NCBI GenBank assembly: GCA_024711295.1
Contig: JANJTB010000033.1
Location: forward strand, 1-64,000
Length of the DNA stretch: 64,000 nt
Direction: 5' to 3'
DNA from: a bacterium
GTDB taxonomy: Bacteria; Bacteroidota; Ignavibacteria; Kapaibacteriales; UBA2268
Notes under the pieces: generated by a model
What the model was told of the DNA's origin: nothing
Seen by the model: the letters and a program-made list of their open reading frames with translations, nothing else
Database searches by the model: none
Part shown: in pieces, positions 19,061 to 26,388 of the stretch
Layout of the letters: the number at the start of each line of letters is the position of its first letter
Numbering within the stretch: the stretch's first letter is position 1
Translations under genes and position numbers: made by a program

Positions 19061-21319
19061 CTATTCTGTAACGGCAATTTTTTGTACAGCTGAATTTTTG
19101 TTGGTATTAGAAGTAGCAAGTACAAGGTAAACTCCCGGAACAACTACATTCCCATTTGAGTCTTTTCCATCCCAAAGAGCTTTGTTGCTATTGATGAACA
19201 TTTGCTTAACTAAAGCGCCTGCCATTGTAACTATTCTGATATCAGAATATTCTTCCAGTCCCTCAATAACCATTTCATAATCTTTGTTAGGCTTAAATGG
19301 TTGTGGATAACATTTCAAATCATAACTTTTAGCTGGTTCTACTGAAAGAGATTTTGCCTCATAAACACCAAGCTTTGTACCAAAATATATTTGACCTGTT
19401 GATTTGTTGTAAGCCAAAGAAAGTACCTCATTTGTTGGAAGCATTGAATTGGAGGTATTAATTATTCCTACTGTGTCTGATCCGTCAGAATTTACAACCC
19501 AAACACCATTATTGGTAGCAAGCCATTTATTGTTTTGAGCATCAACAAGTATATAATTTATATTTTGTTCACCGATTATTCTATTCAGATTACGAACAGT
19601 GATGTTGGGATTAGACTGCAAAACTGTCGAGGGGTTAGCAATGACAGCTAATCCACGTGGAGTACCAATCCAAACAAATCCATTTTTGTCAACTTCAATG
19701 AATGGATGGGTGTTATCAGGCATATTCGAAAATTCATTTTGAGTAAGAAATCCGGAAGCTATATTTGATGTAGCGCCTAAATTACCTCTCTCATTTACGT
19801 AAAGAACCCCTAATCCGCTTACAACACTGCCACCAATCCATTTTGTTCCGTTTAGATCAATTGCTAAAGAATTGAAGTATCTTTGATTTGGATTGCGTGA
19901 GTTATTAAATCCATAAGAAACATCATTTTTGTCTATTGCGACCAAAGAGGCTCCGGAAGATTCATTTCCAAGCACAGGAACCCAAACATTATTGTCTCGA
20001 TCGAACCTTGGTTTACCACAAACAATATAATCAAGGGCATTTGATAAACCAACAAGTTTAGAATTTTCTCTATTAAATGATTTAAACTCAAATTTTTCAT
20101 CTTCCATTTTTATTAATAAAAGACCGTTACCATAACTACCTGCTGCTACTCTGTCATCGTCGGCAATCGTAATTTTATGATAATTATTTGTCTTAATTTC
20201 GGGATAATTCTTTAAATTAATATTCCTCCAATTTATCCCATCAAAAACGGATATACCTCTACCATTAGGATCAACATCAGTAGCAGTCCACAGATTGCCT
20301 TTGCTATCAACACCCATGTCTAAAGATATGTTTGATAATGGTGAATTTGGAATAAAATTTTTAAATTCACCATTAATGAATAGACCGATACCATTACTTT
20401 GGTATCTGATTACTAACCCAACACCATTATTATGCCTCACAGTACTCACACTATAAACAAAATCCGGGTGAGGTATATTGATCGGATTACCCAATGAATC
20501 CAAGACACCAAAAATTGTTGTGAAAACAAAACCAGTTTCAGGAGTACTCAAAATTGAAGTAAAAATATCTTGTGTTCGCAAATGCTCAACTAATGTTTCA
20601 TTTTCTAATCTTGTGATAAACTTGTCGCTCATAGCATAAACAACACCTCTGTGAATCACTACATCATTGATGGATTGTTCGAATAATCCTGGATTTGCGG
20701 GATAACCAGTCCAGCTGGCTGGATTTGCCAAAATACTGCCAATATTTGCTTTAGCTATACCTGATGTAGTAGCAACCCAAATTTCACTATTGTCAATGAA
20801 AATCTTGTTTGCAGGTAAATTTGAATTAAATCCTGCAAAACGACGCACAGTCTCATCAAAAACCCGTTTTTTTACATCGAAAACAGCTAACCCGAATCCA
20901 CCTGCTATAAATGCTTTATCACCGTAAAATACAATGTCATTAATTCTGGGATTCGAAAATTTCTGATTGAAAATATCTGTTATATGAGTCCAATTTCCAT
21001 CTTTATCAAGAATGTCGATATAACCGTTTTTACTTCCGGTGAACAGCTCACCGCTAACTTTGTTATACTTAATTGCAGATATGTCCAAATCAAGCATTTC
21101 ACCAATATTTCTGTAAATTCTAAGCCCTGTACCATCGGGCATAACGGAATAAATACCACCAGAGGTTGCAACCCAAATTTTGCCTTCATCATCTGAATCA
21201 ATATCCTGTGTATATACCAATGATGTATGGGCTTTCCAATCATCTAATCTAATTTGAGAAAACGAAAGAGAATAACTTATCAAAAAAAAACAGACAAGCA
21301 CTATCAGAAATCTAGACAT
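19061..21319 (-). CDS. porZ: PorZ-like beta-propeller protein of the type IX secretion system
   Basis: A 752-residue exported protein: signal peptide 1-21 ending at S-F-S-Q, then two beta-propeller regions. The first propeller starts with W-K-A-H-T-S and contains the repeated pattern of a strand, G-x-I-Y or G-L-A-V-F, and an I-x-V-A-T-S-G-G-I turn. A segment reading G-S-K-N-G-Y-I-D-I-L near 95-104 resembles the same place in PorZ. The last 80 residues are a gliding/T9SS-type C-terminal domain (W-D-G-K-D-S-N-G-N-V-V-V-P-G-V-Y). PorZ sits at the cell surface and presents anionic LPS to the PorU sortase. The length is close to P. gingivalis PorZ. Other regulatory-propeller proteins are possible alternatives. 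Confidence 0.75.
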   Translation of the reverse strand: MSRFLIVLVCFFLISYSLSFSQIRLDDWKAHTSLVYTQDIDSDDEGKIWVATSGGIYSVMPDGTGLRIYRNIGEMLDLDISAIKYNKVSGELFTGSKNGYIDILDKDGNWTHITDIFNQKFSNPRINDIVFYGDKAFIAGGFGLAVFDVKKRVFDETVRRFAGFNSNLPANKIFIDNSEIWVATTSGIAKANIGSILANPASWTGYPANPGLFEQSINDVVIHRGVVYAMSDKFITRLENETLVEHLRTQDIFTSILSTPETGFVFTTIFGVLDSLGNPINIPHPDFVYSVSTVRHNNGVGLVIRYQSNGIGLFINGEFKNFIPNSPLSNISLDMGVDSKGNLWTATDVDPNGRGISVFDGINWRNINLKNYPEIKTNNYHKITIADDDRVAAGSYGNGLLLIKMEDEKFEFKSFNRENSKLVGLSNALDYIVCGKPRFDRDNNVWVPVLGNESSGASLVAIDKNDVSYGFNNSRNPNQRYFNSLAIDLNGTKWIGGSVVSGLGVLYVNERGNLGATSNIASGFLTQNEFSNMPDNTHPFIEVDKNGFVWIGTPRGLAVIANPSTVLQSNPNITVRNLNRIIGEQNINYILVDAQNNKWLATNNGVWVVNSDGSDTVGIINTSNSMLPTNEVLSLAYNKSTGQIYFGTKLGVYEAKSLSVEPAKSYDLKCYPQPFKPNKDYEMVIEGLEEYSDIRIVTMAGALVKQMFINSNKALWDGKDSNGNVVVPGVYLVLATSNTNKNSAVQKIAVTE

Positions 21320-24940: not shown

Positions 24941-25690
24941 ATGGCAAATAAATCAATAATATACGGCAAGACCATACTACTTGGTATAACCGGTTCGATA
25001 GCGGCTTTTAAGACTCCTCTTTTAGTGAGAGAACTCGTAAAGAAAGGTGCCAATATCCATGTTTTGCTAACACCATCTGCAACCCAATTTGTTACACCGC
25101 TGACACTTGCCAATGTCAGCCGGAATAAAGTGATTGTAGATATGTTTGACGAGGAATCACAGACATCGGGTGCTTGGCATATAGAATTAGCTCACAAGTG
25201 TGATGCAATGCTTATTGCACCTTGCTCTGCGACTACGCTTGGTAAAATAGCAAACTCGATTTGTGATACACCCCTTGTATCCGTTGCTATAGCATTACCA
25301 TCATCAATTCCATTAATTATTTCACCTGCAATGGATTCCACTATGTGGATGCATCCTGCAACACAAAGATCACTAGATTTGGTTAAATCAGACGGGGCAA
25401 TCGTTTTACCACCTGTTGATGGTGATTTATCAAGCGGATTTGTCGGACCAGGAAGATTTCCTGATATTCCGGATATAGTATCATTTCTTGAAAATAGTTT
25501 AATCAATTGGGGCGAAAAGAAAAGATATAATTCCTCCTTAGACTATTCAATGCAACATGATTCTATTAAATCAAATTTTGAAAGAGAACAAGAACTTTTG
25601 AATAATCCGATAGAGTCTGTTTCGGAATCTGTATCAAAAGATAAATTTAATGCAGAGCTTGAACTAGAGCAACTAAAAAAAAAACTCTAA
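24941..25690 (+). CDS. coaBC: Phosphopantothenoylcysteine decarboxylase part of a frameshifted CoaBC
   Basis: The first 249 codons of coaBC (Dfp). The CoaC flavoprotein domain spans about 1-185: G-I-T-G-S-I-A-A-F-K near 14-23, active-site His in A-W-H-I-E-L-A near 75, A-P-C-S-A-T-T-L-G-K near 88, P-A-M-D-S-T-M-W near 123 and G-P-G-R-F-P-D near 163. A linker of about 60 charged residues follows and runs into an A10 tract at 25675, where this frame stops at 25688-25690. The CoaB domain continues in the -1 frame without a usable start codon. The two parts form the two-step enzyme converting phosphopantothenate and cysteine to phosphopantetheine for coenzyme A. It may be a real frameshift, programmed slippage or a sequence error. 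Confidence 0.88.
   Translation: MANKSIIYGKTILLGITGSIAAFKTPLLVRELVKKGANIHVLLTPSATQFVTPLTLANVSRNKVIVDMFDEESQTSGAWHIELAHKCDAMLIAPCSATTLGKIANSICDTPLVSVAIALPSSIPLIISPAMDSTMWMHPATQRSLDLVKSDGAIVLPPVDGDLSSGFVGPGRFPDIPDIVSFLENSLINWGEKKRYNSSLDYSMQHDSIKSNFEREQELLNNPIESVSESVSKDKFNAELELEQLKKKL
25675..25684 (+). other. A10 homopolymer at the coaBC frame change
   Basis: Ten A residues in a row lie exactly where the CoaC frame must shift by -1 to enter the CoaB frame. Runs of this length are known sites of polymerase or ribosome slippage, and also of sequencing error. Confidence 0.85.
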
Positions 25691-26388
25691 CTGAACACTT
25701 TCTGAAAAATAAGAAAATCTTAATTACAGCAGGACCTACCAGAGAAAAAATAGATGATGTAAGATTCATTTCAAATTACTCAAGCGGTAAAATGGGTTAT
25801 GCTCTTGCTGAGATTGCATTCCTGCATGGTGCAGAAGTCATCTTGGTTAGTGGTCCGGTAACAATAAAATGTTCTGAAGGAATTAAAAAAATTGATGTGG
25901 AGTCTGCAGAAGAAATGTTCGAAGTTGCAACATCATATTTTGGTTATTGTGATATTGCAATTCTCTCGGCGGCAGTTGCAGACTATACTCCTGCAAAAAA
26001 AATCAAGGGTAAACTAAAGAAGGAACAAATCGGGGATAATTCAACTTTAGAATTATCCAAAACAAAAGACATTTTAAAAGAATTGGGATCCTTAAGGAAT
26101 GATTCGCAAATATTGGTAGGATTTGCCCTTGAATCTAACAACTTAATTGAATATGCGAAGGAAAAGCTTAAGAAAAAAAACTGTGATATTATTGTTGCTA
26201 ACTATGCAAATAAAGAAAATAGCGGCTTTGGTGGTGATTACAACACAATCAGTATAATTGATAAACACGATAAATTCACAGATTATCTACCTATGACAAA
26301 AATAGATTGTGCTGAAGCGATCATTAAATATATCGTTGAATACTCTACTAATGCCCGGGTTCGTAAATCAATCTCAGAAACGTGCTAA
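25675..26388 (+). CDS. coaBC: Phosphopantothenate-cysteine ligase part of a frameshifted CoaBC
   Basis: The CoaB domain in the frame -1 relative to coaC. Its N-terminus reads I-L-I-T-A-G-P-T-R-E-K, then F-I-S-N-Y-S-S-G-K-M-G, the nucleotide-binding motifs, and lies upstream of the first ATG (25792). A protein starting at that ATG would lack both motifs, so translation must enter from coaC by a frameshift. The open frame begins at 25663, after a stop at 25660. Further CoaB signatures are A-A-V-A-D-Y-T-P near 102-109, and V-G-F-A-L-E-S and N-Y-A-N toward the end. The stop lies 41 bases inside the 3' end of the convergent broken gene at 26348. Confidence 0.85.
   Translation, partial: KKKTLTEHFLKNKKILITAGPTREKIDDVRFISNYSSGKMGYALAEIAFLHGAEVILVSGPVTIKCSEGIKKIDVESAEEMFEVATSYFGYCDIAILSAAVADYTPAKKIKGKLKKEQIGDNSTLELSKTKDILKELGSLRNDSQILVGFALESNNLIEYAKEKLKKKNCDIIVANYANKENSGFGGDYNTISIIDKHDKFTDYLPMTKIDCAEAIIKYIVEYSTNARVRKSISETC

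Follow-up and report, generated by a model that had tools for sequence, protein, structure and literature searches.

Transcriptional slippage is described for runs of 9 to 11 A residues (PMC5009743, PMC4256274, PMC1088944), and in the E. coli test cassettes reported in the main text of PMC3711429, -1 frameshifting amounts to 63% at 11 A's, 40% at 9 and 10% at 7. In the tssM1 secretion gene of Citrobacter rodentium, where slippage is experimentally shown, an A11 run precedes a premature stop, the 11 A's of the DNA become 10 to 15 in the mRNA, and slippage restores the long protein, such that both lengths are made (PMC4256274). Genes of Buchnera and Blochmannia that are interrupted by poly(A) tracts are thought to be rescued by polymerase slippage (Tamas 2008, as cited in PMC4389277). 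A9-A10 runs in the dnaX genes of Thermus and Chlorobi lead to two products, in Thermus by slippage (PMC3711429, PMC5009743), and 17 dnaX genes identified by GeneTack span two ORFs in -1 (PMC3711429). The avoidance of long A runs in coding sequence is also described for many bacteria (PMC1088944).

The coaBC gene discussed here resembles tssM1, having an A run shortly before a stop and a long protein that slippage would restore, and it resembles the Buchnera and Blochmannia genes in being an otherwise intact gene with a frame break at a homopolymer, for which correction can be ascribed to the polymerase. Unlike tssM1, it is a central metabolic gene, and the slippage is proposed from sequence. 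Unlike in the reduced genomes of the endosymbionts, the break is found in a genome of 3.45 Mb, in the linker between two domains, and the short product is a whole domain. The dnaX gene of the same genome also has an A10 run, within one ORF; its slipped product would be short, whereas that of coaBC would be long. In some bacteria, for example in streptococci, coaB and coaC are split genes, the two enzymes being able to function unfused; these split genes have ordinary start codons, which CoaB of the present genome lacks. No report of frameshifting or slippage in coaBC, or of transcriptional slippage or programmed frameshifting in Ignavibacteria, was found in the literature searched (subscription papers and supplements being outside the search). 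The terms 'coaBC', 'dfp' and 'phosphopantothen' are absent from the main text of PMC3711429, and PMC4389277 mentions coaBC a single time, among the genes of a count.

The coaBC junction

The gene lies on the plus strand of the window, which is the whole stretch of 64,000 nucleotides that was analysed (contig JANJTB010000033.1, assembly GCA_024711295.1). The genome holding the window is referred to as G000, and G001 and G002 are the other two members of its genus, g1, that were compared. The frame of CoaC (phosphopantothenoylcysteine decarboxylase, 249 aa) extends from the ATG at 24941 to 25690, has the C-terminal sequence SKDKFNAELELEQLKKKL and matches PF02441 at 1-159 of 162 positions (E=1.8e-31). 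It reads CTA AAA AAA AAA CTC TAA across the A10 run at 25675-25684, the proposed slippage site, and ends as LKKKL at the zero-frame stop TAA (25688-25690), one codon past the run; the +1 frame stops 2 codons further. The CoaB frame (phosphopantothenate-cysteine ligase) is in -1, is open from 25663 to 26388, joins the proposed fusion at the A10 run and matches PF04127 at 186 of 186 positions (E=7.4e-71), such that both domains are complete or nearly so. This downstream frame encodes a known protein, which is fused to CoaC in relatives and is 56% identical to the CoaB of the relatives HGW-Ignavibacteriae-4 and LH_M33, by which the bacterium can be assigned to Ignavibacteriota. The split of coaBC by a -1 change at an A10 tract, as given in the preliminary description, is therefore confirmed.

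It is also confirmed that the CoaB motifs precede any ATG. The first ATG, GTG or TTG past the run is the ATG at 25792-25794, 107 bases on, which encodes the methionine of the SSGKMG motif and is too late for the whole domain; the complete CoaB domain is thus without any ordinary start, there being none near the CoaC stop of G000. The CoaB frame has a CTG at 25702-25704, which aligns with the ATG of genus g25. A second intact coaBC, which had been raised as the circumstance in which a dead gene would be less surprising, is not found when the genome (3.45 Mb in 40 contigs, with a completeness of 100) is searched with the CoaBC model TIGR00521: just the two half matches are obtained (218.6 and 161.2 bits), with no single ORF above the curated cut-off of 219.7. 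The frame becomes unbroken with 11 or 8 A's; the lengths of 9 or 12 that had been suggested for a continuous gene are wrong, because CoaB is in -1. Under synonymous shuffling, an A10 at the KKK position has P ~0.16, and the run by itself is unremarkable for this string of codons.

The junction in related genomes

Of 41 loci, the junction was compared at all but five (G005, G027, G031, G010 and G004), which have no match to the CoaB motif. Inspection of this tract in relatives, as had been proposed, shows the same -1 layout with other run lengths in two of them. In G002, an A11 run is followed by an immediate zero-frame stop, CoaB is in -1, and there is no ATG, GTG or TTG for 99 bases. In G023, which belongs to another genus, the run is A9, the zero-frame stop follows within 2 codons, CoaB is again in -1 and no ordinary start is nearby; this is a weaker case, as its contig ends ~120 bases past the run. 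The G002 assembly has 380 contigs and 7% contamination. In G001 the junction instead reads A8G, and CoaB begins at an ATG overlapping the TGA of CoaC, its frame being closed by a TAA before this ATG. CoaB also begins at an overlapping ATG, in +1, in genus g25 (G026, G073 and G074), and in g24 (G025, G070, G071 and G072) a short CoaC is followed by TAATG.

When the order is surveyed, PF04127 is matched in 114 of the 123 genomes. The main CoaB frame is shorter than 300 aa in G000, G001, G002, G025, G026, G070, G071, G072, G073 and G074 and, at contig ends, in G023 and G091; it is at least 402 aa long, as in the fused protein, in the remaining genomes, apart from the following exceptions. The splits in G061 (338 aa) and G035 are only apparent, being caused by N gaps, and in G060 (348 aa) coaC and coaB are separate genes ~220 bases apart (L061), the genus mate G024 having one frame of 526 aa. 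G009 has a second PF04127 match of 69 aa beside one of 418 aa. The splits away from contig ends all sit in the family of the window. PF04127 is matched in 263 of 294 genomes of the class, a survey that gives no count of splits.

In a tree of CoaC plus CoaB (33 rows, one G018 duplicate and the two N-gapped genomes being also omitted; the midpoint root is for drawing only), g1 and g25 form one clade (support 100/99). Within g1, G002 is outside G000 and G001 (support 98/84), so that the state without an ATG is found on both sides of the deepest fork among the three genus members. Either the ancestor of the genus would have lacked the ATG and G001 gained one, or the ATG would have been lost twice. 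Identity between G000 and G002 is 67% for CoaC (163/243) and 59% for CoaB (126/214), and dN is 0.28 and 0.35, respectively, well below the dS of 1.7 and 2.2, which is near saturation; both halves have therefore stayed under selection. A dead gene would not be expected to look like this.

A second interrupted gene

In the gene of a SAM hydroxide adenosyltransferase, the frame is cut within the C-terminal domain at an exact A10 run, with the rest in +1, in all three genus members (L196, 1501-1510, and L245, G000:C2:36148-36771, in G000; L246 and L247, the latter at 2086-2095, in the other two), the combination of run and break in coaBC being found in two of the three. In the G000 gene, PF01887 lies complete before the run (E=2.6e-53). 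The PF20257 domain is divided: its positions 1-19 precede the run, with a match (E=6.8e-5) that falls short of the curated cut-off, and positions 26-74 follow in +1 (E=1.5e-12 in G000, and 5.4e-12 for the G001 part). The gene is matched in 18 of the 36 relatives searched, and the junction is placed by script at 15 of 18 loci (G002, G011 and G007 are unplaced, and G038 runs off its contig). When read by hand, the G002 gene is broken; the open frames of G011 and G007 are 261 and 274 aa long. The 12 copies read outside the genus each continue in a single frame and lack A runs of at least 7 within 200 bases. Among 16 further genomes, nine are matched: the best matches of six are frames of 270-293 aa, and three g25 genomes have a distant longer relative only.

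The +1 break at this A10 run requires A9 or A12 in the mRNA. This can be reached by slippage of RNA polymerase and not by -1 slippage of the ribosome, which favours transcriptional slippage.

Homopolymer runs in coding sequence and in dnaX

Runs of at least 9 A's are avoided in coding sequence overall in the samples of both G000 (8 observed versus 25.0, sd 3.2, expected in 289 genes, to which the dnaX locus was added on purpose) and G002 (6 versus 18.6, sd 2.8, in 124 genes). The whole genome of G000 has 49 A/T runs of at least 10, of which 42 are intergenic and 7 are in ORFs; in G001 there are 45, 37 and 8, respectively. For G002, where the scan gives 108 overlapping matches, 25 distinct runs were read at 30 loci and in further stretches; 15 of these are intergenic and 10 are in ORFs. 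Five of the 25 runs read in ORFs are at breaks, namely in coaBC of G000 and G002 and in the SAM hydroxide adenosyltransferase gene of G000, G001 and G002. This confinement to two orthologous genes makes random errors unlikely, as errors would not choose orthologues. The other 20 runs continue in their own frame, and 19 of these have no other frame that is open for 30 codons past the run, the exception being L228, an ORF of 110 aa with 37 open codons in -1. Strong slippage at A10 would be costly for these 20 genes; either the genus tolerates some cost there or it slips less than the E. coli cassettes. In this assembly of G000, three Pfam domains (DUF1980_C, SQS_PSY and HTH_17) extend across A9 or A10 runs without a change of frame.

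In 390 kb of G000, including the window, 35 A/T runs of at least 8 lie within long frames, and only at coaBC does a broken frame give way to a long new one (100 open codons). The coincidence of run and frame change is thus more remarkable than the run itself. The SAM hydroxide adenosyltransferase gene is not in this sample, and its break would have been missed by this definition. The 22 runs in 167 kb of G002 yield coaBC and three other cases. In these three, a start codon lies 8 to 50 bases past the run, and they resemble normal ends of genes. A T9 run (in the sense direction) at 21282-21290 of the window lies 29 bases from the first codon of a PorZ-like (T9SS) gene on the minus strand, close to its start.

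The dnaX gene, matched in 58 of 60 genomes, was read at 30 loci. In the hinge (codons 355-401), 16 of these 30 genes have an A9 or A10 run, versus 7.5 (sd 1.8) by synonymous shuffling. In G000 the A10 run (L159, 2616-2625) is in frame, and the other frames stop within 1 and 2 codons; quick stops in the other frames are also seen for most of the A9-A10 runs, as in slippage of the Thermus type. The 14 genes without such a run include that of G001. This sole genus member with an ATG for CoaB has A7 in dnaX, versus A10 in G000 and G002, as if both coaBC and dnaX had left slippage, for which the number of cases is too small.

Proposed mechanism

It is probable, as judged from these comparisons, that coaBC is functional and relies on slippage at the A10 run. 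The unslipped mRNA, with 10 A's, would give CoaC alone. RNA polymerase would stutter on the run, part of the mRNA would gain one A (a net change of -1), and translation of this part would give the CoaBC fusion, with a linker (LKKK-TLTEHFLKNKK-ILITAGPTRE) of near normal length. The cell would then have both CoaC and CoaBC, with CoaB present as the fusion only. We infer from the sequence that the slip occurs, that it is mainly transcriptional and that both products are made in some ratio. Slippage giving CoaC and CoaBC, already put forward in the preliminary description, is the best-supported reading, and the choice between transcription and the ribosome that was left open there now leans towards transcription.

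This reading is supported by the sole coaBC, the layouts in G002 and G023, the selection on both halves, the SAM hydroxide adenosyltransferase gene, the dnaX runs and the avoidance of runs of at least 9 A's; the argument is drawn from the persistence of the state in G002 and from the second gene, and not from the A10 run alone. Other observations point the other way. G001, the closest relative, has an ATG over the stop and A7 in dnaX, the three g25 genomes also have an overlapping ATG, and in G000 the CTG that is in frame with CoaB could act as a weak start. The run of G023 is near a contig end, the assembly of G002 is fragmented and contaminated, and the coaBC run length in the species of G000 is known from one genome. 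The net changes also differ, coaBC requiring A11 or A8 and the SAM hydroxide adenosyltransferase gene A9 or A12.

Alternative explanations

It is rather unlikely that CoaBC is made by -1 ribosomal frameshifting on the A10 run and not by slippage of RNA polymerase. The run offers an in-frame A_AAA_AAA heptamer for tandem slippage of lysine tRNAs, the required shift is -1, and A_AAA_AAA and A_AAA_AAG are among the frameshift heptamers of GeneTack (PMC3711429). Against this, 9 to 11 A's are the lengths described for transcriptional slippage (PMC5009743, PMC4256274, PMC1088944), and no downstream structure is found clearly beyond that of shuffled sequences (fold z of 0.24, -0.91 and 0.16, and 0.24 in G002, for pseudoknot-free folds). 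Transcriptional slippage is preferred because of this lack of structure, because of the +1 break in the SAM hydroxide adenosyltransferase gene, which -1 slippage does not give, and because of the layout of dnaX. The two processes are not mutually exclusive.

There is a small probability that CoaB is a separate protein, for which the ribosome would terminate at the end of CoaC and re-initiate at a non-AUG codon (the CTG at 25702 in G000, an ATT overlapping the TAA in G002). This route was missing from the preliminary description, and G001, a close relative, appears to use re-initiation, its ATG lying over the CoaC stop as in the three g25 species, with whose ATG the G000 CTG aligns. CTG and ATT are nevertheless weak start codons, on which the whole supply of an essential enzyme would depend. 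The codon of G002 that matches the CTG is TTA, and G023 has no near-cognate start between the run and the domain. In G000, G002 and G023 the -1 frame also has no stop between the run and CoaB, whereas it is closed by TAA in G001, where the ATG exists. The break in the SAM hydroxide adenosyltransferase gene, moreover, is inside one domain, which would hardly be made as two proteins. Re-initiation at an ordinary start fits G001, g25 and g24 and is excluded in G000 and G002.

It is improbable that the gene is in truth continuous and that the homopolymer was wrongly sequenced or assembled, an assembly error having been the main alternative in the preliminary description. Long A runs are error-prone and the species is represented by one genome, but the same break is found in another species with a different run length, the A10 of the SAM hydroxide adenosyltransferase gene is present in three assemblies, the breaks are at 5 of the 25 in-ORF runs read, all in two orthologous genes, and three Pfam domains of the G000 assembly continue in frame across A9 or A10 runs. 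The relatives and the second gene thus remove most of this concern, though not all of it. A pseudogene, with CoA or its precursors taken up, is very improbable: the frame is broken on paper, but both domains are intact and under purifying selection in the genus, and this is the sole copy in a genome of 3.45 Mb that is rated 100% complete.

Implications

If transcriptional slippage is indeed used, an essential enzyme of a non-reduced genome relies on errors of RNA polymerase, and annotation pipelines are likely to call coaBC two genes or a pseudogene. The break within a single domain of the SAM hydroxide adenosyltransferase, shared by three species, lends itself to a clean test of slippage as a regular mode of expression. 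A wider and more tentative proposal, which we would consider possible rather than probable, is that the genus keeps a small group of genes set by slippage at A10 runs (coaBC, the SAM hydroxide adenosyltransferase gene and dnaX), with such runs otherwise purged, that the coaBC run sets the ratio of CoaC to CoaBC, and that slippage and re-initiation swap between sister species. Fused, run-interrupted and re-initiated versions of the enzyme are found side by side in this clade, and the routes of gene fusion and fission can therefore be tested.

The comparison of G060 with its genus mate G024 points to repeated fission within the family. A linker helix, (E/S)KDKWNAE..(L/M)KK, is kept at the CoaC end in G001, G026, G073 and G074, although CoaB starts independently in these genomes, and it may therefore serve a function within CoaC.
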